DNA from: a virus
Virus record (IMG/VR): IMGVR_UViG_3300022687_000027
Span: 1 to 28,422 of that record
Length of the DNA stretch: 28,422 nucleotides
Reading direction: 5' to 3' (one strand)
The notes beneath the pieces were generated by a model. That model saw only the letters and a program-made list of their open reading frames with translations, did no database searches and was not told where the DNA came from. Below are positions 1 through 19,148 of the stretch, piece by piece (position 1 is the first letter of the stretch; each line of letters opens with the position of its first letter). The translations under genes were made by a program, and so were the position numbers.

Positions 1-1659
1 TCACGCGAGACGGCAGAGTCGTTCCTGGTCCTGCCAGTCGAGGGGCAGCGTGACGGTCATGAGATGCTGAAGTGTGATCTCCGGAGCAAGTCTGCCGTTG
101 GCGATGGCGCGCTGGATCCGGGGCGACAGGAACGCAAGCTGGCTCCGGGTCCGGATATAAACGTCGTGATGCCCGGCATCGCGGGCGATGTCGCCGAGCG
201 GCACGCCGTCCCGAAGTGCCGCTGTCCAGAGATGGGCATCCCGGAGCGTTCGGAGCAAGACCGCGTCCGGGGCCGCAGGCGTGTCGCCGACGACAAGCTT
301 TGCCTCGACGCCACGGCGGCGCAGCTGAGTTTCCCGGCTTATCTGCTCGATGCCTTCGGTGATGTCATCGGCGAGGATGCCGAGCTCCGCAGCCAGGCAA
401 TCGCGCTCCAATGTGAGCGACAGGGTTTGCGGACCGATGGATCCGCTGGCCAGGAGATCGCGCAGCACTTCCCGCTGGTCCGTTCGCACCCGGTCTGCGA
501 GGCGCCGGGCCCTGGCCATGATCTCATGCTGTCCCCCAAGTTCCGGCGACCTCAGCAAGCGGTGTTCGCAAATCGCCGCATCCAGACGATCGGCGATCAG
601 ATCGGCGACGAGGGTTTCCAGCCTGACGGCCGGCAGGCGCCATGCGGAAGGATCCGGTCCGCCGGAGATCAGGCGATTGGAGACATAGTAGCGATGCCGT
701 CGGCCGGACTTGACTGAGTGGGTGGGTGTCAGCCGGTCACCGGTCTCGTCGCGAAGCTTGCCGATCAGCAACGCCGTTTCGCCTCTTGCGCGCTGCCCTC
801 TCTGTCGACGCGCGCCGAGCTGAAGCCGGGCCTGTACGCGATCCCAAAGGTCCTGATCGAGGATTGCCGGATGGCGGCCCGGCCAAACTTGGTCCTTGTG
901 TCGGATGCGACCAAGGTAGACGGGGTTGGTCAGGATGTGATGTATCTGCCCCACCGAAAGCTCACGGCCGCCCTGGATGCGCCCGGATTTGAAGTGGTGG
1001 CGCTTCGAGCGCAGGCCTACATTCGACGCAGCGCTCGCGACTTCGGCCAGGTTGCCGTACCGGTCGTAGAGGTTGAACAAGGCCCGCACCGTCTCCGCTT
1101 CCGGCACGTTAATGACGAGTTCCCGCGTGTTCGGATCGGGATGCGGATCGTAGCCCAGCGGTGGCACGCCCCCCATCCAGAGCCCCTGCTTCTTGGAGGC
1201 CGCGATCTTGTCGCGAATGCGTTCCGCCGTCACCTCGCGTTCGAACTGGGCGAAGGACAGAAGCACGTTGAGGGTGAGACGGCCCATCGAGGTGGCCGTG
1301 TTGAAGGCCTGGGTCACGGAGACGAAGGAGCACCCCGCGGCATCGAGGCGTTCGACGAGACGGGCGAAGTCGGCGAGCGAGCGGGTCAGCCGATCGATCT
1401 TGTAGACCACGACCATGGCGATGCGGCCCGCGTCGATCTCGGAGAGCAGCCGGGCGAGGGCGGGACGTTCGAGCGTACCACCGGATACACCGCCGTCGTC
1501 GAAACGGCCCTGCGCAAGGTACCAGCCTTCGTGTTTCTGGCTGGCGACGTAGGCGGCACAGGCCTCGTACTGGGCATCGAGCGAGTTGAACTCCTGCTCG
1601 AGACCCTCGTCGGAGGATTTGCGTGTGTAGATCGCGCAACGGATCCTAGGCTTCGTCAT
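1..1659 (-). CDS. Large serine recombinase (recombinase family protein)
   Basis: This is a 552-aa site-specific serine recombinase that should catalyse integration, excision or inversion through a covalent 5'-phosphoserine intermediate. The resolvase domain occupies about residues 5-150. It includes the Y-x-R-x-S motif near residues 11-15, with Ser15 the likely nucleophile, and a later YKIDRLTRS helix. A Recombinase domain and zinc-ribbon-like region follow to about residue 330, then a long helical C-terminus. The start at 1659 was chosen because its ATG overlaps the TGA of the upstream DUF2924 gene by four bases; the open frame extends upstream to 1812 but that part is DUF2924 in another frame. 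The stop is at positions 3-1. The protein looks complete, unlike its truncated relative at 9937-11031. Confidence 0.93.
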   Translation of the reverse strand: MTKPRIRCAIYTRKSSDEGLEQEFNSLDAQYEACAAYVASQKHEGWYLAQGRFDDGGVSGGTLERPALARLLSEIDAGRIAMVVVYKIDRLTRSLADFARLVERLDAAGCSFVSVTQAFNTATSMGRLTLNVLLSFAQFEREVTAERIRDKIAASKKQGLWMGGVPPLGYDPHPDPNTRELVINVPEAETVRALFNLYDRYGNLAEVASAASNVGLRSKRHHFKSGRIQGGRELSVGQIHHILTNPVYLGRIRHKDQVWPGRHPAILDQDLWDRVQARLQLGARRQRGQRARGETALLIGKLRDETGDRLTPTHSVKSGRRHRYYVSNRLISGGPDPSAWRLPAVRLETLVADLIADRLDAAICEHRLLRSPELGGQHEIMARARRLADRVRTDQREVLRDLLASGSIGPQTLSLTLERDCLAAELGILADDITEGIEQISRETQLRRRGVEAKLVVGDTPAAPDAVLLRTLRDAHLWTAALRDGVPLGDIARDAGHHDVYIRTRSQLAFLSPRIQRAIANGRLAPEITLQHLMTVTLPLDWQDQERLCRLA

Positions 1660-2063
1660 GGTTGATGTCCCCAATCGGCTCCGAAGAACCGGGGTCCTGA
1701 CCAACGCGCGCCGGTGATGGCGCGGGCCACCGCCGAAAGTGAGCGATAGGTCCCGCCCTGCCAACGATATCCCGCGTCGACGATGTCGACGACATGCGTG
1801 ATCCCGTTCCATTCGCGCAGGAGCCGCCCGCCGGGGGCAGGGCCGGCAGCGGACGCCTTGCCAGCCAGCTGGCGTTCAAGATTCCTGACGAACCCTTTCG
1901 GCAGCCCACCCATACGGCGGGCCTGGACTTCGAAGGCGAGCAAACGTCGAAGAAAAGGCTGGCTGATGCCTTTCGGCACCGGCGTTTTGAAGACTTGATC
2001 CCAGGCGGCGCAGAGCGCCGCCCGGTTCATGGCTTCGATCTCGGCGACTGTCGGCAGGTTCAT
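1656..2063 (-). CDS. DUF2924 family protein
   Basis: This 135-aa basic protein matches DUF2924, a family found almost always immediately upstream of large serine recombinases in alphaproteobacteria. The N-terminal part (about residues 1-70) carries the typical pattern of an LPTV...IEAM start, a W-x-x-VF segment and a helical R-x-LLAFE-x-QAR segment. The C-terminal part holds the G-x-x-Y-x-SLSAVA-x-x-ITG-x-RWSGPRFF motif, a small domain I take to be nucleic-acid binding. The ATG at 2063 overlaps the stop of the DUF3489 gene, and its own TGA overlaps the recombinase ATG, so the three genes are translationally coupled. The role is unknown; I infer an accessory factor for the recombinase. Confidence 0.85.
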   Translation of the reverse strand: MNLPTVAEIEAMNRAALCAAWDQVFKTPVPKGISQPFLRRLLAFEVQARRMGGLPKGFVRNLERQLAGKASAAGPAPGGRLLREWNGITHVVDIVDAGYRWQGGTYRSLSAVARAITGARWSGPRFFGADWGHQP

Positions 2064-2302
2064 GTCGACTCCGCCGCCGCGGTCACACGATACGTGCCGC
2101 CGACGCCGCCGGCTTTGGACGGTGTCAGGTCGATGACATGGCCGGCCTTGCGCAGCCCGCAGATCGCAGCCCGCACCGAATGCGACTGCCAGCCGGTGGC
2201 ATCCTGAAGGGCGGCGAGATCGGCGCCTGACTTGCGTGAAACCAGGCGCAGGACGATCGCGGACTTGGTCTCGCGCGGTGCAGTTCTGGTCTTCTTGGAC
2301 AT
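2060..2302 (-). CDS. DUF3489 family protein
   Basis: This 80-aa protein matches DUF3489. A lysine-rich N-terminus precedes a winged-helix-like core with the family pattern A-x-LQDATGWQ-H-S-VR-A-I-GLRKAGH. It ends in a short beta-hairpin-like tail with GGVGGTYRV. A strong Shine-Dalgarno (GAGGAGA) lies six to seven bases before the ATG at 2302. It is the first gene of a coupled operon with DUF2924 and the recombinase. A DNA-binding accessory or regulatory role is inferred from the helix-turn-helix appearance and position; no function is established for the family that I can name. Confidence 0.82.
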   Translation of the reverse strand: MSKKTRTAPRETKSAIVLRLVSRKSGADLAALQDATGWQSHSVRAAICGLRKAGHVIDLTPSKAGGVGGTYRVTAAAEST

Positions 2303-2634: not shown

Positions 2635-4215
2635 ATGGCGATGATCGGCTGTCTGGCTCATTTGGTTGAGGAGCACCCGAACAGCTCAAGCCTGCCTTTC
2701 TCGGACCAACCCGAGGGAGGCTTAGCTTTGGACGACGACCCCAAGACCCCGACCGAAAATGACGAACTTGCAGGTGCCTCGGGGCAGGACAAAACCGTTC
2801 TGCCCGAGACACCACCTGCTGTTGCGACCGGAGACGGTCTACCGTCATTGTCATACGGAAAGAATGACCTCTTTCCAGAAATAGCAATCCTATGGCTCGC
2901 GCTGAACCTTATCCAGGCTTCGCCGCGCCGTGTGCGACGTGGTCTCGAAAAGCAGATCAAGGGCGTTGCTCGGTCAATCGAGGCCTATGGGTTCCGCGTG
3001 CCGATTCTCGTGCGCACCAGATCGGACGGCAAAGGATACGATGTGGTCGACGGGCACGCGCGCCTTGAAGCCGCGAAACGTCTGGGTGCCCAAGCGATCC
3101 CCTGTATCCTGGTCGACGACCTCTCCGACGTTCAGATCCGTCGGATGTCCCTGTCGCTCAACAAGCTTCAGGAGACCGGCGATTGGGACTTCGCGGCGCT
3201 GCAACTGGAAATCAACGAGATTATCGAGATCAGCGGAGACGTTGAAATCCCTGGCTTCGAGTTGCCCGAAATCGAAGCGATGCAGTTCGGCGGGAGCAAT
3301 TCCGAAGACCCAGATCCTGCCGACGACGTCTCGGAGTTGATCGATCTCGACGCGCCCGTTGTGTCGCGGTTCGGATGTATCTGGCTTCTCGGAGACCATG
3401 TGCTTGTCTGCGGGTCGGCCAGGGACGGGGCATCGCTTGCCGAAATCCTGGGCGGAACTCTGGCGGATGTCGTGTTCATCGACCCGCCGTATAATGTTCG
3501 TATCAGCGGCAATGCACGGAGCTCAGCCGCCGGTTTCCAGGAGTTTGCCGAGGCGTCAGGCGAGATGTCGCGCGCCGAGTTCATCAGTTTCCTGGTCGAA
3601 GCGCTCAAAAACCTGGCAGCCTTGCTCAGGCCGGGTGCCGTCCTCTTTGTCTGCATGGACTGGCGCCATGTCGGCGAGATGACTGCAGCATTGGATGCCC
3701 TCAAGCTGGATCTCCTGAATATCTGTGTCTGGGTCAAGACGCGGCCCGGCATGGGCAGCCTATATCGCAGCCAGCACGAGCTGGTCTTCGTCGCCCGAAA
3801 AGGCGGCGCCGGGCACATCAATAACATCCAGCTCGGAAAGCATGGCCGGAACCGCACGAATGTCTGGCCATATGCCGGCGCCACAGGAGGGCGTGCCGAT
3901 CCGGATGATGACTTTGGCGAGCATCCCACCGTCAAGCCGATCCGCATGGTCATGGAGGCACTGCTCGACGTGACAGAGCCGGGAGATCTGGTCGTCGACT
4001 CGTTCCTCGGCTCCGGCACCACGCTTCTGGCCGCCGAGCGCACACGACGGCGCTGCGTCGGGGTCGAGATCGAGCCGCGATACGTCGATCTCGCGATCCG
4101 CCGCTGGCAGCAGATAACCGGCGGGCAGGCTATCCATGCCGAGAGGGGCGAGACCTTCGACGCAATTGCTGCAACCAGCGGTCAGCGTGCCTCCGAAGAC
4201 GGGGAGGATTTCTGA
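2635..4215 (+). CDS. ParB-domain DNA methyltransferase (DPPY type)
   Basis: This protein of up to 526 aa should methylate adenine N6 or cytosine N4. An acidic low-complexity N-terminus (about 1-75) precedes a ParB/Srx-like domain (about 85-165) with DGHARLEAAKRLG. A beta-class methyltransferase domain follows, with catalytic DPPY (FIDPPYN, near residue 283) before the AdoMet-binding DSFLGSGTT motif near residue 460. Motif II is intact (GVEIEPRYVDLA), in contrast to the second methyltransferase of the window. The first ATG at 2635 lacks a clear Shine-Dalgarno. An in-frame TTG at 2728 is preceded by GGGAGG with seven-base spacing and is a credible alternative that skips 31 residues. The stop overlaps the next ATG (TGATG), so it is coupled to the DUF5681 gene. 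Confidence 0.88.
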   Translation: MAMIGCLAHLVEEHPNSSSLPFSDQPEGGLALDDDPKTPTENDELAGASGQDKTVLPETPPAVATGDGLPSLSYGKNDLFPEIAILWLALNLIQASPRRVRRGLEKQIKGVARSIEAYGFRVPILVRTRSDGKGYDVVDGHARLEAAKRLGAQAIPCILVDDLSDVQIRRMSLSLNKLQETGDWDFAALQLEINEIIEISGDVEIPGFELPEIEAMQFGGSNSEDPDPADDVSELIDLDAPVVSRFGCIWLLGDHVLVCGSARDGASLAEILGGTLADVVFIDPPYNVRISGNARSSAAGFQEFAEASGEMSRAEFISFLVEALKNLAALLRPGAVLFVCMDWRHVGEMTAALDALKLDLLNICVWVKTRPGMGSLYRSQHELVFVARKGGAGHINNIQLGKHGRNRTNVWPYAGATGGRADPDDDFGEHPTVKPIRMVMEALLDVTEPGDLVVDSFLGSGTTLLAAERTRRRCVGVEIEPRYVDLAIRRWQQITGGQAIHAERGETFDAIAATSGQRASEDGEDF

Positions 4216-4649
4216 TGGCCAAGAAAAAAGGTCGCGGCGACTACGATGTTGGCTTCGGCAAGGCGCCGATGCATTCCAGGTGGCCAAAAGGCCAATCCGG
4301 CAACCCCAGTGGCAAGCGGAAAGGTGCGCCGTCGCTCAAGATGGCCATACGCCGGGAACTCGAGGCGCAAATCGCGATATCGGACAACGGCACGCACCTT
4401 GAGGTGACCAAGATGGAGGCGCTTGCCAAACGGCTTGTAGCCGATGCGCTCTCCGGGAAACCCCGCATGCTCACGGAGCTTCTCCGCCAGATCAACATTC
4501 ACCTCTCTGAACCAGGCGAGGGAGACGCGTCTTTGCCGGCAAGCGAGGAAGATGCGGCTCTGCTGCTGGACTACGTGCGCCGCGTAACCGGGCAGGACGA
4601 AACAGCCGAAAGGGAGGGTAAAAATGAACCACCGTCCGACGAATTCTGA
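4215..4649 (+). CDS. DUF5681 domain protein
   Basis: This is a 144-aa basic protein whose first 40 residues carry the DUF5681 hallmark, a W-P-KGQSGNP-GKRKG motif. A helical region follows (about 45-105), then an acidic tail. GGGGAGGA lies six bases before the ATG, and the ATG shares one base with the methyltransferase stop. It overlaps the terminase gene by 26 bases. The family has no established function that I know. Its size, basic N-terminus and place directly before a TerL-type gene resemble a small terminase or DNA-adaptor subunit. That is inference from position only. Confidence 0.8.
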   Translation: MAKKKGRGDYDVGFGKAPMHSRWPKGQSGNPSGKRKGAPSLKMAIRRELEAQIAISDNGTHLEVTKMEALAKRLVADALSGKPRMLTELLRQINIHLSEPGEGDASLPASEEDAALLLDYVRRVTGQDETAEREGKNEPPSDEF

Positions 4650-6090
4650 GGTCTACGCCCTCATTCGCAAGGATTTCCAGTCGTTTGTCATGAAAGTCTT
4701 CGAGACCGTGAGTCTTGGTGAGGATTTCCTTCCGAACTGGCACATCGTCGCAATCGTCTGGCACATCGAAATGGTCTTGAGGGGCGATACCCGGAACCTG
4801 ATGGTCAATGTTCCGCCGCGAACGCTGAAGTCCGTTATCGTTTCGGTTGCCTTGCCCGCGTTCCTCCTCGGTCACGATCCAACACTGAGAATCTTCGTAG
4901 TTTCTCACAGCCTGGATCTGGCAGCTGATCTCCATGCCGCGTTCCGCAAGGTGGTGGAGTCCGAATGGTACAAGGCGGCGTTTCCGACCATGGCACCGGC
5001 GGCCGACAAGGAGACGGAATTGGTCTACCGGACGAGTCAGGGTGGTCAGCGCAAGGCGTTCTCTGTCGAAAGCAAGATCACGGGGCAGGGGGCGCACTAT
5101 ATTATCCTCGACGACCCGCAGGACGCCTCGGACGCGCTCAACGAGCAGGCGCTCGATAAGATCAACCGCTGGATCGCGGAAGTTTTGATGGGTCGTTTCA
5201 ACAAGGGCGCAGAGGCCATCATGATCTTGGTCATGCAGCGCCTGGCGATCAATGATGCGTCAGCGTTCTTGCGGGAGATCGCGAACTGGACCGAACTGAA
5301 GCTGCCGGCGGTGGCCGAAGAAGACATCCGTGTGCCGATCGGCCCGGGAAAACTGCACCTGTTCGCCAAGGGTGATCTGCTTCATCCCGACCTTCTCACG
5401 CTTGATTACCTTGAGAGCCGGAAACGGGCGATGGGAGCGGCTGCCTACAGCGCACAGTATCAACAGGCGCCTTTGCCTGCCGGGGGTGGGTGCATCGACG
5501 TGGGTCTATTCCGGCGTTACGCTGCGCCGCCCAGGACTTGGGACACCCGGTTTCTCAGTATTGATGCTGCCTCGGGATCTGACTCGCTTTCATACTCCGT
5601 CATCCAGCACTGGCAGATCAGTGATTGGCGTATCTACCTCCTGGGATCATGGCGGGGTCATTGGGCCTTCCCAGATTTGCGCAAGTACGCGATCGCGTTA
5701 CGCGAGAAGTTGCGGGCGGACTTCTTCTTGATTGAATACGCATCGAATGGCCAGGCCTTGGCCCAAGAACTGCGGTCGTACTATCCGAGAGAAGTGGTTG
5801 GGCACCTTGTTCAAACTTTCATACCGAGGCAGTCAAAGGAGGTGCGTATGGACCAGGCGATGGTGCCAACCGAGGCCGGCAAGGTGTACCTTCCAAGAGA
5901 TGCTGAATGGCTGCCGGCCCTAATCAACGAATTGCGCGCTTTCCCAAACGGCGCAAACGACGATCAGGTTGATGCGCTCTCGCAAGCGCTTTGGTTTTTC
6001 CACCGGAAGTTTCAGAACAATTATCACAATCCGGAGTTTCAAAAGCGGTCGCGGGTTATCGCGCCTCGGACGACCAGCCGCCGGCGATAG
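4624..6090 (+). CDS. Terminase large subunit-like ATPase/nuclease
   Basis: This 488-aa protein resembles phage terminase large subunits, which cut and pump DNA into capsids. The N-terminal ATPase half has a PPRTLKS P-loop near residue 65, a Walker B-like YIILDDP near residue 160 and a coupling segment ILVMQRL near 200. The C-terminal RNase H-like nuclease half shows FLSIDAAS near 315, a LIEYASNG strand near 370 and the closing NDDQVDAL acidic motif near 443. A strong Shine-Dalgarno (GGGAGGG) precedes the ATG at 4624. Both halves look intact. No portal, capsid or tail genes accompany it; the element ends about 70 bases downstream. It may therefore serve something other than a resident phage, or be an orphan packaging remnant. 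Confidence 0.87.
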   Translation: MNHRPTNSEVYALIRKDFQSFVMKVFETVSLGEDFLPNWHIVAIVWHIEMVLRGDTRNLMVNVPPRTLKSVIVSVALPAFLLGHDPTLRIFVVSHSLDLAADLHAAFRKVVESEWYKAAFPTMAPAADKETELVYRTSQGGQRKAFSVESKITGQGAHYIILDDPQDASDALNEQALDKINRWIAEVLMGRFNKGAEAIMILVMQRLAINDASAFLREIANWTELKLPAVAEEDIRVPIGPGKLHLFAKGDLLHPDLLTLDYLESRKRAMGAAAYSAQYQQAPLPAGGGCIDVGLFRRYAAPPRTWDTRFLSIDAASGSDSLSYSVIQHWQISDWRIYLLGSWRGHWAFPDLRKYAIALREKLRADFFLIEYASNGQALAQELRSYYPREVVGHLVQTFIPRQSKEVRMDQAMVPTEAGKVYLPRDAEWLPALINELRAFPNGANDDQVDALSQALWFFHRKFQNNYHNPEFQKRSRVIAPRTTSRRR

Positions 6091-6155: not shown

Positions 6156-6183
6156 GAGAGTTCGAATCCCGTTTCCTCCGCCA
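6156..6183 (+). other. tRNA-Ser 3' end fragment (likely att site)
   Basis: The bases read as the T-loop TTCGAAT, the 3' side of a T-stem (CCCGT), the acceptor strand TTCCTCC, a discriminator G and CCA. Acceptor TTCCTCCG is typical of tRNA-Ser. No matching 5' tRNA half precedes it, and the 5' T-stem bases do not pair well, so this is only the 3' end. Such duplicated 3' ends are left when an element integrates into a tRNA gene; the intact copy should lie left of the window on the same strand. Confidence 0.75.
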
Positions 6184-6640: not shown

Positions 6641-7453
6641 TCAGCCGCTCATCAGCTTTTTGATACTCCCGATGAAACTCGCATCATCCTGATCCTTCCG
6701 TTCATCCAAGAGCTTCTCCGCGTCCGCTCCGGCACGGAAGCGCAAACGGTCTCCGGTGTCGTTGGCTGCGTCCCAGATGACCTCGGCCACCGTTTCAGGC
6801 GCGGAGGGATTTGACGCCAGCTTGCCGAACAGGCGACCCATGGCCTCGGCGGTCGGCGCATAGTCCGAAAGGCTTTCATCCATCGCGAAGTCGAAGGAGC
6901 TGCCACCGAAGTTCGTCTTGATCATACCGGGTTCAACGATCCGCACTCGAATGCCGAGGGGTTCAAGTTCGTAGTGCAGCGCCTCTGAAAGGCCTTCGAC
7001 CGCAAACTTGGTGCCATGGTAGAGCGTGCCGAGCGGAAAAGTGATCTGCCCGCCGATGGATGAGATATTGATGATCGTGCCCGACCGGTTCTGGCGCATA
7101 TGGGGCAGGACCGCCTTGGTCACCTCCAGCAGCCCGATCACGTTGGTGTCGAACTGGCGACGGATACGGTCCATCGTGAATGCCTCGAGCGCACCATAGG
7201 CGCCGTAGCCTGCGTTGTTCAGCAGCACGTCAATCTTGCCGAAGCGGTCGATGCCCGCCGACACAGCCGCCGGGATCGATGCTGCATCGGTCACGTCGAG
7301 CCGGACCACGGCCACGTTGTCCAAAACGGCGAGCGCGTCACCCTTGGATGGGTCTCGCATCGTGGCGATCACGTTCCAACCGTTTCTCTGAAAGTGTCGG
7401 GCCGTCGCTTCGCCGATGCCGGATGAGGCCCCTGTGATCAGAATGGTTTGCAT
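6641..7453 (-). CDS. Short-chain dehydrogenase/reductase (SDR), first copy
   Basis: This 270-aa classical SDR is a soluble NAD(P)-dependent oxidoreductase. The Rossmann glycine motif TGASSGIG is at residues 7-14, an NNAG motif at 79-82, the active-site serine near 132 and the catalytic pair Tyr145/Lys149 (YHGTK). A basic residue after the second strand (TMRDP) suggests an NADPH preference. GAGGAGA precedes the ATG at 7453. The gap to the upstream SDR gene is ten bases, so the two are co-transcribed. The substrate cannot be read from sequence. Expression is probably controlled by the divergent AraC-family protein at 8497. Confidence 0.92.
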   Translation of the reverse strand: MQTILITGASSGIGEATARHFQRNGWNVIATMRDPSKGDALAVLDNVAVVRLDVTDAASIPAAVSAGIDRFGKIDVLLNNAGYGAYGALEAFTMDRIRRQFDTNVIGLLEVTKAVLPHMRQNRSGTIINISSIGGQITFPLGTLYHGTKFAVEGLSEALHYELEPLGIRVRIVEPGMIKTNFGGSSFDFAMDESLSDYAPTAEAMGRLFGKLASNPSAPETVAEVIWDAANDTGDRLRFRAGADAEKLLDERKDQDDASFIGSIKKLMSG

Positions 7454-7463
7454 GTCTGTCTCC

Positions 7464-8333
7464 TCATGCGTTCAGGTCGAGCATCTCAGCGATGCCAAAG
7501 TTGGTCAGGACGGTGCGGGTGACATCATGGAGCACATCGTTGTAGCGCTCGATCTCGGGGCCGACGCCGACATGGTCTACGACAGTGCGAAAGGGCTTTT
7601 GCCCAAACGGCATGTCCAGAAGGGCTGCGACCGTTTCTGCGATCCGCTCTGGTCGCTGCATTGGCGTCGCCTCGAGCATCTGGGCCAGCCCGGCATTGGA
7701 CATCGCGGGCACGGCGGCAAAGTCGCCGTATTCAGCCTCGCGCGCTGCGTCGTTCGGCGCCACCAGGCCGTCGAAGAACGCTGTCGGCATGGCCCCAGGT
7801 TCGATGATGCAGGACTCGATTCCGAAACCGGAAAGCTCGGTCCGATAGCATTCGACGATGGCTTCCAGCGCCCATTTCGACGCAGAATAGGTGCCGTAAA
7901 ACGGGGTCGCAATTCGCCCAATGAGGCTGGAGGTATAGAGCACGGTTCCCCGGCCTTGCGCCCGCATGTGCGGGAGGGCTGCCCGCATGACCCGCTGAAC
8001 ACCCATGACATTCACGTCGAATACGTGCGCCATGTCGTCCGGGGACATAAGCTCCTGAATGCCGTAAGAACCGATCCCGGCGTTGTTGAACAGGATGTCG
8101 AGCCCGCCCAGTTGCGAAATCGCATCGTCAACACCGCGTTCGGTGCTAGCCGCGTCGGTCACATCCATCTCGACGATTTTTGCGCCTGCGGCCTCAAGCT
8201 CGGCGACAGTCGTGGCGTTCTTTCCGCTGCGACTGCGCACACTTCCGGCAACGGCATAGCCCCTTGCCAGAAGAGCCAGCGCCGTGGGCTTGCCGAAACC
8301 GCCGGCGGTGCCGGTAATAAGAACTTTTTTCAT
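7464..8333 (-). CDS. Short-chain dehydrogenase/reductase (SDR), second copy
   Basis: This 289-aa classical SDR is the first gene of a two-gene leftward operon. The cofactor motif is a variant, TGTAGGFG at residues 7-14. NNAG is at 83-86, the active-site serine near 136 and YSASK gives Tyr149/Lys153. AAGGA lies eight bases before the ATG at 8333. It is clearly related to its downstream neighbour but not a recent duplicate: the two differ through most of their length. SDR genes divergent from an AraC regulator are a common cassette for aldehyde or ketone handling, but the substrate here is unknown. Confidence 0.92.
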   Translation of the reverse strand: MKKVLITGTAGGFGKPTALALLARGYAVAGSVRSRSGKNATTVAELEAAGAKIVEMDVTDAASTERGVDDAISQLGGLDILFNNAGIGSYGIQELMSPDDMAHVFDVNVMGVQRVMRAALPHMRAQGRGTVLYTSSLIGRIATPFYGTYSASKWALEAIVECYRTELSGFGIESCIIEPGAMPTAFFDGLVAPNDAAREAEYGDFAAVPAMSNAGLAQMLEATPMQRPERIAETVAALLDMPFGQKPFRTVVDHVGVGPEIERYNDVLHDVTRTVLTNFGIAEMLDLNA

Positions 8334-8496
8334 CTTTGCGATCCTTCATATCGATACAGACACGATATTCAGGGAAGGCGTGGCAATCTTTCTGATTTGT
8401 CCGGGTTTCTTGCACGATACTCCAGAAGTCGCATATTTCGGTAAGTTATTGATCCTTTGCGTGCTATGGCTTCGGGGCAGAGAAACGGGGGCGGCC
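8334..8496. promoter_or_regulatory. Divergent SDR/AraC control region
   Basis: The 163 bases between the SDR operon and the AraC gene hold an inverted repeat, ATATCG-N9-CGATAT, at 8348-8368, immediately upstream of the SDR start. It is a plausible binding site for the divergent regulator. No convincing -35/-10 pair was identified. Confidence 0.4.
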
Positions 8497-9387
8497 ATGA
8501 TACCTGAAACATTGCTGAATCGCGTGTCATCGATCCTCGATCACTCGGGGGTGCAGCAGGGCGCGCTGTTTCATGAGGACAGCGGGACACACCTGTTGCG
8601 CCATGAGGCTCCCACGGGCCAGAATGCGACCGTCTATCGCCCGTTGCTCTGCCTCATCCTGCAAGGCGCGAAGGACGTCGCAACCGGCGCGAAAATATTG
8701 ACCGTCAGCGCCCGGCAATCCCTGATCGTCAGTCATGCCTTGCCGGTCCTGTCCCGGATCACCCAAGCGACGCCCGAGACCCCTTACATCGCGCTCGTCT
8801 TCCCCCTTGATCTGGATCTGCTCCGATCTCTGGCACCATCGGTGTTGCCGTCGTCTGACAGCAGGCCCTCGGATCCGTTTTCGATTCATCTGTGCAATAC
8901 GGATGAAGAGATCGAAGACGCTTTGCGGCGCTATCTCGGTCAATGCGAAACCGACGCCGCGCGGCGCCTGTTGGCGCCGATCACCGCCCGCGAAATCCAC
9001 GCTAGACTGTTGATGGGGCCGCATGGCGAGACACTGCACAAGCTGCTTTGGCACGAAAGCACGGCCAGCCGCATTTTCCAGGCTACGCGGGATATCCAGA
9101 CCCATCTTGCCAAGGCGATTGTTGTCACGGACCTCGCTCGGGGCGTCGGCATGAGCAGTTCGGCCTTTTTCGAGCAATTCAAGGCCGTTACCGGCACCTC
9201 TCCGCTGCAATATCAAAAAGACCTGCGCCTGCTGCGTGCCCGAGATGAGCTTCAGACATCCAGCGCTAAAGTGTCAGAGATTGCATTCGGGGTCGGATAC
9301 GAAAGCTCGGCGCAGTTTTCGAGGGAGTACTCCCGCAAATTTGGCCGGTCACCACGGCAAGACCGGACCCTCGAGCCAGTTGCGTGA
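8497..9387 (+). CDS. AraC-family transcriptional regulator
   Basis: This 296-aa regulator has an N-terminal AraC-type sensing domain (AraC_N, about residues 15-165) and two C-terminal helix-turn-helix units (about 200-292). The second HTH carries the classic SEIAFGVGYES-x-FSREY-x-KFG-x-SP-signature. The open frame runs upstream to 8284, but the conserved protein begins at the ATG at 8497; upstream residues overlap the SDR promoter region and look non-coding. It diverges from the two SDR genes and most likely activates them, possibly through the inverted repeat at 8348-8368. This pairing is inferred from layout. The inducer is unknown. Confidence 0.9.
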   Translation: MIPETLLNRVSSILDHSGVQQGALFHEDSGTHLLRHEAPTGQNATVYRPLLCLILQGAKDVATGAKILTVSARQSLIVSHALPVLSRITQATPETPYIALVFPLDLDLLRSLAPSVLPSSDSRPSDPFSIHLCNTDEEIEDALRRYLGQCETDAARRLLAPITAREIHARLLMGPHGETLHKLLWHESTASRIFQATRDIQTHLAKAIVVTDLARGVGMSSSAFFEQFKAVTGTSPLQYQKDLRLLRARDELQTSSAKVSEIAFGVGYESSAQFSREYSRKFGRSPRQDRTLEPVA

Positions 9388-9556
9388 CGCCGTTTTGGTC
9401 CCGACCTGGCGTCAGATCTCGAAAGGCTGCAATCAAATTTTCGGCAAGCATGGTCTCGGAACTGACATCTGGCCACATTTATCGGCAGCCCGACTCTCCA
9501 TGGATAACTGGCGTTTTCGCCCCCCTGCTTTTGTCCGGACCCTAAGTTGCTAAACC

Positions 9557-9940
9557 TCAATCGAAAACCCTTTCCGGCTGCTCTACCCACGGCAGCTCCG
9601 CCACACCGCAGAGGTCGAAGATCGACAGCACCGTGGGTTCGCGTCGCAGGACCAACCGTTCGAGCACCGATGGCGAGAGCCATGCCAGCCGGATCACACG
9701 GCTGACATAGCGGTCGGAGATGCCTTCCTCTCTGGCGAGATCGGCGATGGTGTTGACGTCGCCGCGCTCGAGCCTGTGCCGCCAAGCCCACGCGCGGCCG
9801 ATCGCGCGCAGCAGGCGGGCATCCTGGCCGCGATCCATGGCAATCACGATCTCCTTGGGCGGCAGAATGCGTGGGCGGCCGCCGCGATTGCGCATGGTGA
9901 GGGGGATGTGGACGCGGAGGGTTTCGGGCTCTGCCATCAC
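9557..9940 (-). CDS. HTH protein linked to the recombinase module
   Basis: This 127-aa protein has a KorB/ParB-like helix-turn-helix at about residues 55-90, with IADLAREEGISDRYVSRVIRLA. Proteins of this kind are usual partners immediately downstream of DUF2924-linked serine recombinases; the function is not established. The GTG at 9940 overlaps the recombinase stop by four bases (GTGA), and an ATG follows directly at 9937. The C-terminus ends in a tryptophan/glutamine-containing PWVEQPERVF segment. The gene itself looks complete although its upstream partner is broken. A role in DNA binding at the recombination site or in regulation of the operon is inferred. Confidence 0.8.
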   Translation of the reverse strand: MMAEPETLRVHIPLTMRNRGGRPRILPPKEIVIAMDRGQDARLLRAIGRAWAWRHRLERGDVNTIADLAREEGISDRYVSRVIRLAWLSPSVLERLVLRREPTVLSIFDLCGVAELPWVEQPERVFD

Positions 9941-11031
9941 GCCACCTCCGACTTGGCTGGGGCCATAAGGGCGGCAATCGCGCCCAAGCCCTCATGTCGG
10001 AGATCGACCGCTAGCCCGGCGTCGCTGGCGGTGACTCGCGCCACCAGAAGCCTGACCACGCGCGCCTGCTCGGCCGGGATCAGCGCCTTCCACATGTCGT
10101 CGAACTGGGCGAGCGACGCGCTGATCGCTGCCTCGCCAAGGTCAGGCCGATCCTTTCGCAGGGTCCGCGATACCCGCGCGGCAACCTCCGGCGTGCGTAG
10201 CAGGCGGCGGATTTCACCAACCACGGCATCCTCGACCATGCCACCGGGCAGCCGCTGCGGGCCTCGGATCTCGGCCTTGGGCCGTTTCTTGATCGCGTCC
10301 ATCGAGACGTAATAGCGATAGCGCCGCGTGCCTTTCTTGGTGTGGTGCGGGGTCATCGCGACGCCGGTTTCGGTGAAGATCAGCCCGCGCAGCAGCGCCG
10401 GTGAGGGTTCCTTGGCAACGGCAACCCGTTTGACGCGGTTGTTCGCTATTACATGATGGACGTCGTCCCACAGTGTCTCGTCGATGATCGCGTCGTGTTC
10501 GCCGGGATAGGCCGTGCCCTTGTGCACAGCGAGGCCGCGATAGACCTTGTTGTGCAGGGTCTTGAGCAGCGAGGTCTTGTCGTAAGGTCTACCGGTCTTG
10601 GTCAGGATCGCGCGTGCGTCCAATTCGCGGATCACCTCCGCCGTCGAACTGGACCGGGCGTAGAGCGTGAAGATCGTCCGCACCGTCTCGGCCTCGCCCG
10701 GGTCCACGATCAACTTGCGGTCCTTCACGTTATAACCCAGCGGCACCGGCCCGCCCATCCAGATGCCCTTCTTGCGCGACGCAGCGACCTTGTCGCGGAT
10801 CCGCTCGCCGATCACCTCGCGCTCGAACTGAGCAAAGCTGAGCAGGATGTTCAGTGTCAGACGCCCCATGGACGTCGTGGTGTTGAAGGATTGTGTGACG
10901 GACACGAAGGTGACGCCGTGCTTGTCGAAAATCTCGACCAGCTTGGAGAAATCCATCAACGCGCGGCTGAGGCGATCGATCTTGTAGACGACGACGATGT
11001 CGATCAGCCCGTCCTCGATGTCGGCGATCAA
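9937..11031 (-). pseudogene. Truncated large serine recombinase (N-terminal catalytic segment deleted)
   Basis: Recognisable recombinase sequence begins at a LIADIEDGLID segment near 11031 and continues through VVVYKIDRLSR, the recombinase domain, a degenerate zinc-ribbon region and the C-terminus to the stop at 9937. The missing piece is roughly the first 80-90 residues, which should hold the Y-x-R-x-S catalytic serine. Upstream of 11031 the frame is a shadow of DUF2924, which is read in another frame there. A single deletion that removed the end of DUF2924 and the start of the recombinase explains both truncations. The remaining open frame could still be translated from an internal start, but catalysis is not expected. 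Confidence 0.85.
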
Positions 11032-11242
11032 GGGCCAGTTCCTGGATCCGATACCCCAGCCGCAGCTCGAGGTTCTGGCGGCTGGTGTTTGGCGCGGGCG
11101 CGTCAAAGATCGCCGCCCATTTCTCGCGCAGCTCCGGCACGGTCATCGCCTTCAGCGCGACCAGGTCCGCTAGGACAGCGTGGCCCTGCGCAGGGCCAAG
11201 GCCCGTTCTCTTTCCTACTGATTTCATTTTGATTTTCGTCAT
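11032..11242 (-). pseudogene. DUF2924 fragment (C-terminal part deleted)
   Basis: About 70 N-terminal residues of a DUF2924 protein are present. They include MTVPELREKWAAIF and RQNLELRLGYRIQELA, the conserved helices of the family. The sequence then breaks off at about 11032, where recombinase sequence begins in a different frame. The open frame continues to 10730 only as out-of-frame recombinase. The ATG at 11242 overlaps the stop of the small upstream gene by four bases. Compared with the intact DUF2924 at 1656-2063, the C-terminal SLSAVA...GPRFF domain is gone. Confidence 0.85.
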
Positions 11243-11646: not shown

Positions 11647-13599
11647 TCAATCGGAGGAACCGCTTATCCACTCGAGGGGGATCAGGGCTTTTCCGCCTCG
11701 CCACTTCTCGACGATGGCATCTTGGTACCATTCCTGTTCGATGTCGGCGTGCTCGGTCACAATGATCTGCAGTTCTGGCGCAAGATCCGCAGCGACGTCC
11801 CGGAGCAGCTCGAACAATCGGATGACTGCGGAGCGATCAGAATCTTCAAGGTCCGCGATTGAGCGGTCGTTGGCATTATCCTCCGGGAAGTAGACTTGCG
11901 AAGGCTGGTCTAGAACTAGGATACCAGGAACAGGACGGTCATGGCGAACAAACCAGTTGTGCAAAGCAAGATGCGCAATAACGTGGCAGCCCAGATGGTT
12001 CTCACCACTTCCCATCCGGCTCATTGGGATTAGCCTACCGTCCACATCAGCAACGACTTGCAGTTTGCGAATGTCGAGTCGGTGCGGATGTCCACCCCAC
12101 TCCAACCTCAATCTTTCTGCCCATTTGGTCAAACGGCCACCAATCACCGAAAGGATCGAGTCAATGCGCTCGGAGATGCTGTCCTCTGAGAGTTCTGCTT
12201 CGAGACCGTCGATCTCCCCGCGCAACCGTTCGATTTCCGTACGCAGGCCCGACGTATCTGAAGCGCGCGGCAAGGTCTCGAGGAACAGGCTAATGCGTCC
12301 GAGCACATGGGCCCGACGGGACGCTGTGTCACGAAGTTCTGCCAGTCGCTCATCAGAGCGGTTGAGCGCGTCAAGAGATTGTTTCGTTTCAATGAGGCCT
12401 CGCCGCGTGTCAGCGATCTTAGTCTCCTGCTCCAAGATGACCGCTTCTAGGCCAGGTGTTCGTCGTGAGACGCGCTGAAGCTGTTCAGCGGCCCGAGCCA
12501 TCTCTGTTCGCAGACGGTCGACTGTTGGCACGGCGTCAGGGGTCGATTGTTCACAAAGTGGACAATGAGCTTGGTCGCCCGAATCGAAAAGCCCGAGGCT
12601 CGAGAGACGCGCCACTTGTTCTCCAGCTTCTCGAGAAAAGCTCGAACCGCCGGCGCGCAAGGCCCGCATTTGTTCTAGTTCATCCTCTTGGCGTTGTAGG
12701 AGCGTGCGCAGCTGCGTCCGCTGTCTGTTCAGGCGGTCCAATTCAGTCTGCTCGGGCTGCTGCTCGTAGGCTCGTGACTGTTCTTCAGGATCACCGAGGG
12801 CGGCACTCCTCAAGGCTTCTACCGCCTCATCGAATTTCTCTGAGGCGATTTCACCGTCCAAAAGGCCAATGTCACGGGCCTCTGTCAAAAGAGTCGATGC
12901 TGGGCCTCCGCCGATATCGGACATTGCCTCCGCCTGAGCGAGGCTGCGTTCTGCAGTTCGAAGGCTACGTCTCCGTTCTGTTAGTAACTTCTTCTTCGCA
13001 ACGTCATCGTCAGCGACTGCACCAAGGAAGTAGGGCAACGTGTCTACTATGGCCTGTCGTATCCAGTTATCGGCCGCGCCGTCGAAGAGCACTTCCTTGC
13101 GGGCAATAACGTCTTGGGGCTGGAAAGCGAAAGACAGAGCATGGCTGAACTTCGCGACGAGTGGATCGCGGGTTTGACCCGGCAAGGGGTCGTGCCTGTT
13201 CGCTCCTATGCCCACAACCGATCCGAGGCGCGCCATAATCGTCTCGATGTTAGTAGTGGCTTCAAGGTCGCTCGCGTCCGGTAGCACAACTTCTTCGCCG
13301 ACGGAGTAGAACGCGGCATTTGTGGTGGCTCTATTTGGCGCCGGTGCTTGTCGTGCCACGAAATGCTGCTCAGATCCGGCGATGAGGCGCAAACCGTACC
13401 ACGATACGTTCCCCCTAATTACGCCCTCTGGTACATCGCACTCGCCGCTGCCAAGGCAATAATCGATAATTGGAATAAGGGCCGACTTGCCGGTGCGTGA
13501 TGCACCAGTGACGATGTTCAGCGCCCCAGTCTCGAATGACACGACCCGACGCTGCCCTTTATGGGAATACAATACGATGTCGAGGATCTGCATTGTCAT
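11647..13599 (-). CDS. ABC-3C system ATPase, DUF3732 family
   Basis: This 650-aa SMC/Rad50-like ATPase is the motor component of an ABC-three-component (ABC-3C) system, a class of predicted anti-invader systems. Walker A (GASRTGKS) is at residues 32-39. A long charged coiled coil spans about 200-480, interrupted by CPLC (Cys346, Cys349), which recalls the Rad50 zinc hook. The ABC signature is SGENHLG at 531-537, Walker B is GILVLDQPSQ at 559-568 and a switch histidine sits in VTEHAD near 617. The residue after the Walker B aspartate is Gln, not the usual Glu; as I recall this DQPSQ form is usual for DUF3732. The ATG at 13599 overlaps the preceding stop (ATGA). It is the last gene of the three-gene operon. 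Confidence 0.88.
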   Translation of the reverse strand: MTMQILDIVLYSHKGQRRVVSFETGALNIVTGASRTGKSALIPIIDYCLGSGECDVPEGVIRGNVSWYGLRLIAGSEQHFVARQAPAPNRATTNAAFYSVGEEVVLPDASDLEATTNIETIMARLGSVVGIGANRHDPLPGQTRDPLVAKFSHALSFAFQPQDVIARKEVLFDGAADNWIRQAIVDTLPYFLGAVADDDVAKKKLLTERRRSLRTAERSLAQAEAMSDIGGGPASTLLTEARDIGLLDGEIASEKFDEAVEALRSAALGDPEEQSRAYEQQPEQTELDRLNRQRTQLRTLLQRQEDELEQMRALRAGGSSFSREAGEQVARLSSLGLFDSGDQAHCPLCEQSTPDAVPTVDRLRTEMARAAEQLQRVSRRTPGLEAVILEQETKIADTRRGLIETKQSLDALNRSDERLAELRDTASRRAHVLGRISLFLETLPRASDTSGLRTEIERLRGEIDGLEAELSEDSISERIDSILSVIGGRLTKWAERLRLEWGGHPHRLDIRKLQVVADVDGRLIPMSRMGSGENHLGCHVIAHLALHNWFVRHDRPVPGILVLDQPSQVYFPEDNANDRSIADLEDSDRSAVIRLFELLRDVAADLAPELQIIVTEHADIEQEWYQDAIVEKWRGGKALIPLEWISGSSD

Positions 13600-14096
13600 G
13601 GTGCCACTCCCCACAGCGCCATAATTGTTTCGCTCTGTCCGGCACCTGCGAACCAGCGCCCGACGAAACGTGCCCTCTTCAAACAATCCTTAACCTCGTC
13701 CGTCGTTTCTCGTTCGAAAGACGCCATTGGACGGGGCCGTTGTCTGGATTGGATACCTTCATGGTCCACGTTGAGGAGCCCCTCGCGACACCCGAAGAGC
13801 AGCCCGCTTTTCACCAGTGGCACGAGGGCTGTGGCTCGCTGCGCGAACCCTACGAGAGCGCGTGGATGCGCGCCGAGCCAAGCTGCAAGAGACGTACGCT
13901 TTGAACTCGGAAGGAGGGTTCTAGTTGGCCGGTGCAGAACAGTAGGCAATGCAATGAAGGATAGGGAATAAGGCAAATCCCTGCCACTCTCCGCCCTATG
14001 GCCGTCGGCGCAGGACCATAGCAGCGTAGCAAGAAAGGCGGGATTTAGCAGTCTCGCCTCCTCCATCGGTTGATCGCTCCAAGCCAGCAAACTCAT
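13596..14096 (-). CDS. ABC-3C middle component
   Basis: This 166-aa protein sits between the nuclease-like protein and the DUF3732 ATPase and has the features of the ABC-3C middle component: an N-terminal EEARLLNPAF segment, a central FIALPTVLHRPTR segment and a helical LVPLVKSGLLFG region. These proteins are thought to bridge ATPase and effector. Overlaps of four bases at both ends (ATGA) show strict translational coupling. The start at 14096 was taken because it makes that overlap; the open frame continues upstream only as a shadow of the neighbouring gene. The assignment relies on context plus recognisable family pattern. Confidence 0.78.
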   Translation of the reverse strand: MSLLAWSDQPMEEARLLNPAFLATLLWSCADGHRAESGRDLPYSLSFIALPTVLHRPTRTLLPSSKRTSLAAWLGAHPRALVGFAQRATALVPLVKSGLLFGCREGLLNVDHEGIQSRQRPRPMASFERETTDEVKDCLKRARFVGRWFAGAGQSETIMALWGVAP

Positions 14097-15319
14097 GGGG
14101 CCGCCTCCGGTAAAAGGAGGTGCTTCAGTCGCTCCCGAAACTGAGGATGCCAACCGATTCTCATTTCATCCGCTAGCATGTGCAGCGATCCGCGCGTCAG
14201 GCTCCGCTCAGACACTCTGGACCGGATTGGAAGATCAGCATCCTCTGCCCATTTGCACAATCGCTGCGCTGCCTGCCGGGAGATGTTCTCTGCTGCATCG
14301 GTGCCTATTTCGTCAGCCATTTGATCAAATACGATTGACCATTCTTCCGTGAGGCGTCGTTCGTAACGTTTCAATTCTCCTAATTCGAGCAAGTCTTCGC
14401 GCACCCAGCGCGAACGTTGTGCGAAAGCTCGATAGAAATCCTGAACTGCTCTAAAGATGCGTCTATGATTGACGCCACTAAGTTCCAGCTGCTGTACAAA
14501 CGGGCTGCTAGCATACTCACTCAGGCCCACCTCAACACCAAAGATTTCTTCGTCGACCGGTAATGCCTCCTGATGGAACTGATCGCGCAGATCATCTAGT
14601 TTGAGTTGCAACTCGCCGCTGGCGATTGGATCTGCCATCGGGCTCCGCAGCTGTCTGACGGCGCGATTATACCACCAACCTTCTAGCCTTGTCAGAAGCG
14701 CTTCTCGATGTTGCGGCCGTGCCGCCGACCATATTTCTCGGCGCAGTTCTTGATCCAAGTCGGTGATGTCCGCCATGCCCGGCAGTATCAGAATAGCCGA
14801 GGCCAAAGCGACTCTCTCCGCCTCATCTAGGCTTCGGAACAGCCCGTATCCGACGGAGTTTGTGGCGTTCCCGGAAGTTGTCGCCGTAGCGAGCAGTGAT
14901 CTGACGGCGGCCACAACATCTCGGTCTTGATCCCGCGCTCTAAGGTACGACGCAGCAGATCCTTCACCTACTTGGGCCGTCGTAACGAGAAAGAGTTGTG
15001 AATCGTCAGGGATCGCGCCGCTAGCGCGGCCCTCGATCCAGACACGCAGCGTTTTCCAAAGATCGGTGCTGGCATCAGTCAGGTTGGCCGCGTTGGCCCG
15101 ATGATGCTTCAGCTGCAGTAGCTCTAACGGGGATCCCTGTTGGTCAAAGACGACATCATCAAGCGTCTCGAGAAATACTGAGAAAGTCCGATCTTCGCTG
15201 AGCTTTTGGAGGGCCTGCAGCAGTGCAAACCGCGCCTGGTAAAGATAGCCCAAGGCGGGATCCGCAGCTGAAAACGCTGTCATGCTCGATGCAGGATCTG
15301 GTGCGTCACCCTCACTCAT
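14093..15319 (-). CDS. ABC-3C C-terminal-domain protein with nuclease-like N-terminus
   Basis: This 408-aa protein is the first gene of the ABC-3C operon. Residues 24-37 (GYLYQARFALLQAL), then Glu51 and Asp54/Asp55 (LETLDDV) and Gln69-x-Lys71 (LLQLKHH), reproduce the G-x-x-YQ ... E-x-x-DD ... Q-x-K pattern of Cap4/DUF4297-type PD-(D/E)xK DNA endonucleases. Residues about 180-400 are helical and probably form the domain that docks on the middle component or ATPase. I infer that it is the effector that cleaves DNA on activation. There is no clear Shine-Dalgarno before the ATG at 15319. A possible 59-aa frame just upstream overlaps its start by eight bases and might provide coupling. Confidence 0.75.
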   Translation of the reverse strand: MSEGDAPDPASSMTAFSAADPALGYLYQARFALLQALQKLSEDRTFSVFLETLDDVVFDQQGSPLELLQLKHHRANAANLTDASTDLWKTLRVWIEGRASGAIPDDSQLFLVTTAQVGEGSAASYLRARDQDRDVVAAVRSLLATATTSGNATNSVGYGLFRSLDEAERVALASAILILPGMADITDLDQELRREIWSAARPQHREALLTRLEGWWYNRAVRQLRSPMADPIASGELQLKLDDLRDQFHQEALPVDEEIFGVEVGLSEYASSPFVQQLELSGVNHRRIFRAVQDFYRAFAQRSRWVREDLLELGELKRYERRLTEEWSIVFDQMADEIGTDAAENISRQAAQRLCKWAEDADLPIRSRVSERSLTRGSLHMLADEMRIGWHPQFRERLKHLLLPEAAP

Positions 15320-17387: not shown

Positions 17388-17743
17388 TGGTCCGCCTTGA
17401 TGATTTCGCAGCCGACCGGGTGGTGCCGTTCTGCGTCGCTGGCGGCCTGGACGAAGTCGGTCTCTGCGCATGGATCGCGCAGGCCGAACCCGGCGAGACG
17501 CTGATTTATCACCGCGGGTTTCTGGCAGTCGATGCCACGGCCGTTTTGTCGAAACTGCCTGCGGACCGTCAACGCGCATTGCGCCAGGTCGCGGCCGCCG
17601 CCCTTCGCGCCGCTGAGCAGAACCTTGTCCACCTCGTCCAGGCGCGGATTGGCCCCGACCAGTTCGCCTACATCGCCGTCGCCCGGCCCAAACCCCGATC
17701 CAGCGGTGCCGCCCTGTCGGTCCGCCTGCTCGAGGCTGCGTGA
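17384..17743 (+). CDS. Unknown phage protein in the early operon
   Basis: This 119-aa protein is coupled to the HTH gene by a four-base overlap at an ATGATG start (17384 or 17387). Residues about 15-70 have an alternating pattern with GETLIYHRGFLAVD. A helix follows (QVAAAALRAAEQNLVHLVQAR), then a strand FAYIAVARP near the C-terminus. No catalytic motif is visible. I do not recognise the family. Its place between the HTH gene and the recombination genes suggests an early accessory protein. Confidence 0.75.
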   Translation: MMVRLDDFAADRVVPFCVAGGLDEVGLCAWIAQAEPGETLIYHRGFLAVDATAVLSKLPADRQRALRQVAAAALRAAEQNLVHLVQARIGPDQFAYIAVARPKPRSSGAALSVRLLEAA

Positions 17744-17787
17744 TGCGCGCCTTCCAATCCTTTTTCACCGATCACGGAGACCAGTTC

Positions 17788-18276
17788 ATGCCATTCCCCG
17801 AGAATACCCCAACGCCGGACGATCTGCCGTCCCTCAGCGCAGCCGAAATCGCGGCCCTGCCGGTCGAGTTGCTGGCAATCCTGCAGCGCGAGATCGACGA
17901 GCGCCTGACGCGTGACAAGGCGGCCAAGACCCGTTTTGATGCTGGACTGGCAGTCCGCTATGCCACCCGCGCCGCTGAGGAACGGCAGGTTTCGGGCAAA
18001 GACACCGGCACAGTCCGCTTTGATGATGGCGATTTCACCGTGGTCGTTGATCTGCCGAAGCGGGTGGATTGGGATCAGGACCGGCTGGCCGCCATGGTGG
18101 CGCGGATCGAGGATGCCGGGGATGATCCGGCCGAATATGTGGATCTCGCCTACAAGGTGCCAGAGCGCAAATACGCCGCCTGGCCCGAGGCCATCCGGCA
18201 GGGTTTCGAGCCCGCACGCACCGTCCGGCCCGGCACGCTGAAGGTCGAGATCGTCCCGCAGGGGGGCGATCAATGA
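17788..18276 (+). CDS. Unknown acidic phage protein
   Basis: This 162-aa protein starts at the ATG at 17788, which has GGAG eight bases upstream. The frame is open from a GTG/ATG at 17740/17743 that overlaps the previous stop, so an N-terminal extension of 15-16 residues is possible. A helical stretch (LSAAEIAALPVELLAILQREIDERL) leads to a conserved-looking DDGDFTVVVDLPKRVDWDQDRLAAMV segment and a DPAEYVDLAYKVPERKYAAWP segment. The stop overlaps the Sak4-like gene by four bases. Coupling to a recombinase-type ATPase suggests a partner in DNA recombination, but no function can be assigned. Confidence 0.78.
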   Translation: MPFPENTPTPDDLPSLSAAEIAALPVELLAILQREIDERLTRDKAAKTRFDAGLAVRYATRAAEERQVSGKDTGTVRFDDGDFTVVVDLPKRVDWDQDRLAAMVARIEDAGDDPAEYVDLAYKVPERKYAAWPEAIRQGFEPARTVRPGTLKVEIVPQGGDQ

Positions 18277-19148
18277 GCCTCCCCATCATCAGCGCCGACC
18301 AGCGGCTGGCCGAGCCGCGCGGCATCAAGGGCTGCATCTTCGGGAAAAGTGGAATTGGGAAAACCTCCCTTCTGTGGACCCTCGATCCCGAGCGCACGCT
18401 ATTCATGGATCTCGAAGCGGGTGATCTCGCCATCGAGGGCTGGGCGGGCGACAGCATCCGGCCACGCACATGGACGGAATGCCGGGATTTCGCGGTGTTC
18501 ATCGGTGGGCCCAACCCGGCGCTACGCGATGAGCAGCCTTACAGCCCGGCGCATTATACCGCCGTCTGCGACCGCTTTGGGGATCCGGCAGCACTCGATC
18601 GCTACGACACCATCTTCGTGGACTCGATCACTGTGGCGGGTCGGCTGTGCTTCGGGTGGTGCAAGGGCCAGCCCGAAGCGCTGTCGGAGAAGACCGGCAA
18701 GCCGGATGTGCGTGGCGCTTACGGCCTGCATGGCCGTGAGATGATCGGCTGGCTCACGCATCTGCAGCACACGCGGGCCAAGAATGTCTGGTTCGTTGGG
18801 ATTCTCGACGAGAAGCTTGACGACTTCAATCGCAAGATATTCCAGCCGCAGATCGACGGCTCCAAGACCGGGCTCGAGCTGCCGGGGATCGTCGATGAGG
18901 TGATCACCATGGCGGAGTTGAAGGCCGATGGCGGCGATCCGTATCGCGCCTTCGTCTGCCAGACGATCAATTCATGGGGCTTCCCGGCCAAGGACCGCTC
19001 TGGCCGCCTCGAAAAGGTAGAAGAACCTCATCTCGGCCGACTGATGGCGAAGATCCGGACGCTTGCGTCCCAAGCGACCGACCGGCTGACCTACGCCCCG
19101 CCGCCCACCGAACCGGCTGCCACCGACCAATCCCAACCACAATCCTGA
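18273..19148 (+). CDS. Sak4-like AAA ATPase (phage recombination protein)
   Basis: This 291-aa RecA-fold ATPase has Walker A GKSGIGKTSL at about residues 24-33, an acidic motif FMDLEAGD near 45 and Walker B TIFVDSI near 110-116. This short RecA-like core without the longer RecA C-terminal domain matches the Sak4/AAA_24 group of phage single-strand annealing or strand-exchange proteins. A proline-rich tail ends the protein. The ATG overlaps the previous stop (ATGA) and follows a GGGGGGCGA site. The next gene encodes an SSB-like protein, the partner such ATPases usually have. Confidence 0.82.
   Translation: MSLPIISADQRLAEPRGIKGCIFGKSGIGKTSLLWTLDPERTLFMDLEAGDLAIEGWAGDSIRPRTWTECRDFAVFIGGPNPALRDEQPYSPAHYTAVCDRFGDPAALDRYDTIFVDSITVAGRLCFGWCKGQPEALSEKTGKPDVRGAYGLHGREMIGWLTHLQHTRAKNVWFVGILDEKLDDFNRKIFQPQIDGSKTGLELPGIVDEVITMAELKADGGDPYRAFVCQTINSWGFPAKDRSGRLEKVEEPHLGRLMAKIRTLASQATDRLTYAPPPTEPAATDQSQPQS

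Follow-up and report, generated by a model that had tools for sequence, protein, structure and literature searches.

Terminases are taken as diagnostic of viruses, and the stretch of DNA analysed here, the 28,422-bp IMG/VR record IMGVR_UViG_3300022687_000027 (the window), is catalogued as a virus record. Near its left end lie three coupled genes, hereafter the triad, which encode a DNA methyltransferase (MTase) with a ParB-N domain, a DUF5681 protein, and an ATPase/nuclease resembling the terminase large subunit (TerL). The question raised by this locus is what a packaging motor does beside an MTase when no portal, capsid, or tail gene accompanies it. For the structural-gene families searched, our results support the triad as a stand-alone module well beyond this window. 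The cassette descends from phage packaging genes and is mobile. Judging its function from gene content, we tentatively read it, at a little under even chances, as a portable restriction-modification-like cassette built from phage packaging parts.

The triad genes and their conservation

The three open reading frames (ORFs) were confirmed as an overlapping operon by coordinates and by Pfam and PHROG matches, in agreement with a preliminary description of the locus made from the sequence alone. The MTase and DUF5681 genes overlap at position 4215, and the DUF5681 and TerL genes overlap by 26 nt. TerL also matched TIGR01630 above the cut-off. Its predicted model showed the two-domain terminase fold with a predicted local distance difference test score (pLDDT) of 92, and the top PDB matches were the PhiV-1 and T4 gp17 terminases. 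TerL thus belongs, by sequence and by the fold of its ATPase and RNase-H nuclease domains, to the tailed-phage terminase large subunit family.

The window MTase is of the beta-class N6A/N4C type, in which the DPPY motif precedes the FLGSG motif. The closest NCBIfam model was CcrM-like, with a score under the cut-off, and the top PADLOC match was a type II MTase. The DUF5681 protein is small, contains a conserved KGxSGNPxGRPKG segment, and is a putative DNA-binding partner. Its AlphaFold2 model reached a pLDDT of 82; comparison with the PDB gave no clear or convincing match, and a small-terminase fold is still compatible with the model. In a viral contig (L003; L numbers are our labels for loci), the DUF5681 gene lies immediately upstream of TerL, with portal and head genes downstream, and therefore holds the place of the small terminase there. 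In a felixounavirus, the DUF5681 gene is located away from the terminase. No PADLOC model matched DUF5681 or TerL, and nothing relevant on DUF5681 or stand-alone terminases was found in the open-access literature.

To find relatives, genomes were scanned with an alignment of three TerLs, which gave 80 loci; an earlier scan of genome contigs with a single protein had given no match, as its peptide patterns were too specific. The six window proteins were then compared to the 80 loci by tblastn. The order and orientation of the MTase, DUF5681, and TerL genes were the same at nearly all loci, the genes usually overlapped, and all three were present in 73. The triads were found mostly in Alphaproteobacteria, and also in Geothrix, Elusimicrobiales, and gut Alphaproteobacteria. 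The closest relative was Silicimonas algicola (L016), in which TerL identity is 63% and the six genes are arranged as in the window. Among 385 alphaproteobacterial species taken in an even draw, this TerL was present at E <= 1e-60 in 31 species and at 39 places; by our own count, 30 of these places were triads, spread over 23 species. No description of the cassette was found in the open-access literature searched.

The ATPase-side residues of the window TerL (K69, R66, D163, D164, Q205, and R206) and its nuclease residues (D314, E371, D447, and D450) were invariant in 73/73 triads, 33 of them at loci that lack the window-type recombinase. Among MTase relatives, the motif IV catalytic Asp was kept in 63/65 and the motif I glycines in 65/65, and the MTase appears catalytically intact by these motifs. 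The catalytic motifs had been described as intact, and this holds for TerL in all 73 triads and for the MTase in nearly all relatives. Purifying selection on TerL, proposed earlier as a check, was also observed: pairwise ratios of nonsynonymous to synonymous substitution (dN/dS) were about 0.04–0.18 in pairs with measurable dS. Low values were also obtained in pairs without the window-type recombinase (L024/L036, 0.12; L070/L087, 0.18).

These values bear on the possibility that the triads are remnants of decayed prophages, in which the start of a late operon was kept by chance. TerL and DUF5681 are indeed of phage descent. However, 73 loci share the same three genes, the active sites are intact, and dN/dS is low; random decay is not expected to retain exactly these genes. 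In the tree of TerLs, 81 chromosomal sequences and the 10 tested phage sequences fell on opposite sides of a branch with SH-aLRT support of 99; nested among the 81 were three phage-like loci that lack MTase and DUF5681 (L053, L062, and L074). This tree came from a quick search with a small phage set and does not establish a single origin. We consider decayed prophages very improbable, and this origin was rejected because of the selection on the triad and its recurrence.

Structural genes and island anatomy

The absence of structural genes was examined in the carrier genomes. The PF04860 portal was present in 23/43 of them and the PF05065 capsid in about as many, yet only one of the 43 genomes carried these families within 20 kb of the triad (L033, at 7–9 kb and past the recombinase). 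For the Pkon1-type portal family PF13264, the only match was in the control phage. When 1,850 ORFs surrounding the loci were clustered de novo, no structural gene recurred among the triad loci. Furthermore, no recurrent helper-hijack gene (capsid sizing, regulator, or replication) was detected among the ORFs within 10 kb of the loci; an HTH_3 protein was present at some of them. In the even draw, a tblastn search for the portal was negative in all 26 triads fetched, and a portal lay directly after TerL in 4 of the 9 TerLs without triad partners. Among 80 IMG/VR TerL relatives, the 8 with at least 34% identity were all triads on contigs of at most 7.5 kb, and the other 72 had no triad. The stand-alone nature claimed for the window was therefore borne out in other genomes, and homologues lying always inside full prophages were not what we found. 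Prophages with the terminase phrog_38 and the MTase phrog_498 contain the same protein families, whereas the triads lack portal, capsid, and tail genes, and a strongly supported branch sets the chromosomal TerLs, with the three phage-like loci nested among them, apart from the 10 phage TerLs tested.

The triad of the window lies next to a serine recombinase operon, whose Resolvase, Recombinase, DUF2924, and DUF3489 domains were all recognised by Pfam, as the preliminary description had proposed (Table 1). The tRNA-derived junction that it placed about 70 bases after the triad was also located, as a 3'-end fragment starting 67 bp past the TerL stop.

Table 1. Features of the triad island in the window, with the evidence for each
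Feature	Position	Strand	Evidence
ParB-N DNA methyltransferase	2635..4215	+	Pfam N6_N4_Mtase E 2.6e-32; ParB_N E 5.8e-10
DUF5681 protein	4215..4649	+	Pfam DUF5681 E 1.1e-20
Stand-alone terminase large subunit-like ATPase/nuclease	4624..6090	+	phrog_38 E 2.6e-90; Terminase_6C E 4.2e-7
Serine recombinase, large serine integrase type	1..1632 (longer ORF to 1812)	-	Pfam Resolvase E 3.9e-36, Recombinase E 1.8e-13
DUF2924 protein, recombinase operon	1656..2063	-	Pfam DUF2924 E 1.2e-35; recurs beside recombinase
DUF3489 protein, recombinase operon	2060..2302	-	Pfam DUF3489 E 1e-19; recurs
tRNA-Ser 3'-end fragment, presumed right attachment junction	6158..6183	+	sequence inspection

The left junction is not visible in the window because the record begins at the recombinase stop codon (positions 1–3), and ARAGORN detected no whole tRNA in the 28.4 kb. 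The arrangement was clearer in Silicimonas L016, whose recombinase is 68% identical to that of the window. There, a tRNA-Ser(GGA) at 5062–5151 precedes the recombinase, and a copy of the tRNA 3' end follows TerL, so that an element of 6.37 kb with six genes lies between the tRNA and its partial copy. The copy is imperfect (21/26 matches, compared to a shuffled maximum of 15). By inspection, the window fragment also matched the 3' end of the L016 tRNA-Ser(GGA) at 21/26 positions. In the reading that we favour, the window element would be a tRNA-integrating island of about 6.2–6.4 kb carried by the serine recombinase. Between the tRNA and the recombinase of L016 (5152–5470), repeated TTCCCTGC / GCAGGGAAT motifs were observed, which are possibly recombinase binding sites.

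At other loci, tRNA genes for Ser, Gln, Val, Glu, Pro, Met, and Ala adjoin the recombinase 3' end, and the flanking genes mostly differ from locus to locus. At these loci, neither exact nor fuzzy far-side copies of the tRNA 3' end scored better than shuffles, and precise boundaries are therefore claimed for L016 only. In Sphingomonas L065 and two relatives, a shared right end was located about 8 kb from the tRNA; a search for empty sites in this genus yielded no clean one, as other islands occupied the same tRNA.

This anatomy keeps alive the possibility of a capsid-less satellite, namely a tRNA-integrated island whose DNA is packaged into helper procapsids by a small-terminase-like DUF5681 and TerL once a helper phage infects; the MTase would mark the packaging site or shield the DNA. 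The bounded six-gene island of L016, the tRNA beside the recombinase at many loci, and the position of DUF5681 in the viral contig are all consistent with it, and so is the occurrence of DUF5681 and TerL as a pair. In addition, a 5.4-kb scaffold with the order recombinase-DUF2924-MTase-DUF5681-TerL has been deposited as 'Bacteriophage sp.' from Mexican faecal samples. Its source was probably a particle-enriched sample of a study that used filtration and DNase treatment, to which it is tied by its description alone and not by accession.

Phage satellites such as phage-inducible chromosomal islands (PICI), capsid-forming PICI (cf-PICI), and P4-like elements are likewise small islands with tRNA attachment sites, terminase-type genes, and variable defence cargo, and defence genes do lie between TerL and the recombinase in some triad islands. 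Unlike these satellites, the triad islands combine TerL and a putative small subunit with no capsid, scaffold, replication, or regulator genes, and many triad copies have neither of the recombinase modules described below. Portal, capsid, scaffold, and replication genes do not recur in the neighbourhoods, which speaks against packaging of this kind. We regard a satellite as unlikely, although it keeps real weight.

Linkage, mobility, and possible function

The pairwise distances of TerL and MTase were correlated (r 0.77), and in the deduplicated set this correlation was higher for TerL-MTase (0.66) than for TerL-recombinase (0.48). The MTase and TerL have thus been inherited together. When the 385 even-draw genomes were searched for DUF5681, all 30 triads were recovered, together with six loci that have intact MTase-DUF5681 genes and lack this TerL (L251, L253, L255, L256, L258, and L259), while no DUF5681-TerL pair without an MTase was found in the 385 species. 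This asymmetry leans toward restriction-modification, not decisively.

At another even-draw locus, L249, the TerL that follows MTase-DUF5681 belongs to another family (phrog_2, 7573–8922), and no phage structural gene was recognised near it. L258 is a bounded tRNA-recombinase-MTase-DUF5681 island that lacks TerL and may be a TerL-free relative of the cassette. Two tandem DUF5681 genes follow its MTase at 8513–9621, the second of which has an additional region at its C terminus. The existence of this island argues against the satellite, although MTase-DUF5681 islands of this type could be satellites with a small terminase only.

The position of the recombinase was variable. The window-type recombinase was divergent at the left in 9 loci, as in the window, and colinear at the right in 27. 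Other triads (L035, L058, L077, and L150) are accompanied by another serine recombinase with two ParB-like proteins after it, and neither module was in reach of 25 triads, some of which lie among ordinary metabolic genes. An initial reading of 33 triads as recombinase-less was rejected, as some of them (L035, L058, L077, and L150) carry the recombinase-ParB-ParB module. Likewise, a gene upstream of the MTase was rejected as a shared component because it belongs to several unrelated families. The triad is therefore a cassette that rides two or more unrelated mobility modules, or none found nearby. Both the change of module and the 25 triads with neither recombinase speak against a satellite, as does the intact TerL even in recombinase-poor lineages. 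Staphylococcal cassette chromosome (SCC)-type cassettes with Ccr serine recombinases are similar serine-recombinase islands, and the recombinase matched the CcrB model under the cut-off; they differ from triad islands, which have tRNA attachment sites, DUF2924/DUF3489 partners, and other cargo.

Genes between TerL and the recombinase or beside the triad were picked by eye, and several are related to defence. They included SIR2-HerA and PDC-S41 in L021, a type II restriction-modification pair of a C5 MTase and a FokI-like endonuclease in L082, MzaB in L025, an E1-like protein in L035, and DruE/DpdE at 165 bp downstream in L058.

Both roles named in the preliminary description, satellite and repurposed nuclease, still stand. 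We give the repurposed nuclease more weight because the triad is joined to two or more mobility modules that are unrelated, or to none, because of its defence neighbours, and because the even draw contained MTase-DUF5681 without TerL but no DUF5681-TerL without MTase. A restriction-modification-like role is favoured by the strict MTase linkage, the retention of the triad without a recombinase nearby, the swapped mobility module, and the same defence neighbours. In such a system, the MTase would mark its own recognition sites in host and island DNA, and DUF5681 would act as a DNA-recognition or loading subunit similar to a small terminase. TerL, as a translocating ATPase with an RNase-H-fold nuclease, would be loaded onto unmarked incoming DNA and cut there.

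The triads may represent an undescribed restriction-modification-like defence class, with a repurposed TerL as a DUF5681-guided translocating nuclease licensed by a ParB-type MTase, carried on several kinds of serine-recombinase island, mostly in Alphaproteobacteria and also in other phyla; for this wider claim, we put the chances noticeably short of even. As in Type I and type II restriction-modification systems, one operon contains an MTase, an ATP-dependent translocase/nuclease, and a small, putatively DNA-binding protein; the nuclease arm may be lost more often than the MTase, and the mobile islands lie beside other defence genes. The motor-nuclease differs from theirs in being a TerL with an RNase-H-fold nuclease, not the superfamily 2 (SF2) HsdR or a type II endonuclease.

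Several observations weigh against restriction-modification. All solved relatives of this TerL are packaging motors, phages carry ParB-type MTases too, and DUF5681 and TerL may still be a working packaging pair, given the portal and head genes of L003. L063 has a truncated MTase although its TerL is intact, and intact TerLs also accompany the frame-broken MTases of two metagenome-assembled genomes (L083 and L090). Few cases underlie the loss asymmetry, and a lineage that never had this TerL may account for some of the MTase-DUF5681 pairs. The defence adjacency comes from a handful of chosen neighbours and may not amount to enrichment. The elements of L083 and L090 are near-identical gut elements in which the MTase frame breaks at different places; this could be phase variation or assembly error.

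Alternatively, DUF5681-TerL could compete with or misdirect the packaging motor of an infecting phage, with the MTase shielding the host chromosome. An intact motor under selection without structural genes and the defence genes as neighbours would both fit such interference, but the strict MTase linkage is not specifically predicted by it, and we consider it improbable.

A packaging motor that is under selection without a shell would have to be a defence enzyme derived from phage parts or else a minimal satellite. Either reading would change the annotation of terminase matches in bacterial genomes, and the locus raises the testable question of whether a terminase paired with a methyltransferase can work as a restriction nuclease.

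Other regions of the window

To the right of the triad lie two SDR oxidoreductase genes and an AraC regulator (6641–9387). This stretch showed 79% DNA identity over 2.6 kb to a Peteryoungia plasmid and is partly common to Ruegeria and Phaeobacter plasmids too. A second serine recombinase at 9937–11106 adjoins a phage-like region; its Resolvase model match starts only at position 55, and the N-terminal part seems to have been lost or frame-shifted. A DUF3732 SMC-like ATPase (11647–13686; DUF3732 was the only domain tested) is followed by a 408-aa protein, and this pair (11647–15319) presumably resembles ABC-three-component defence systems.

The phage-like genes at 17.7–28.4 kb are a region separate from the triad, past the SDR/AraC genes and the second recombinase. 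On the + strand at 17740–28250, this replication region encodes a Sak4-like annealing protein, a DNA helicase, a Cas4-type exonuclease, a primase/helicase, a RuvC-like resolvase, and a second ParB-type MTase. It is interrupted by the contig end, and its late genes may lie beyond position 28422.

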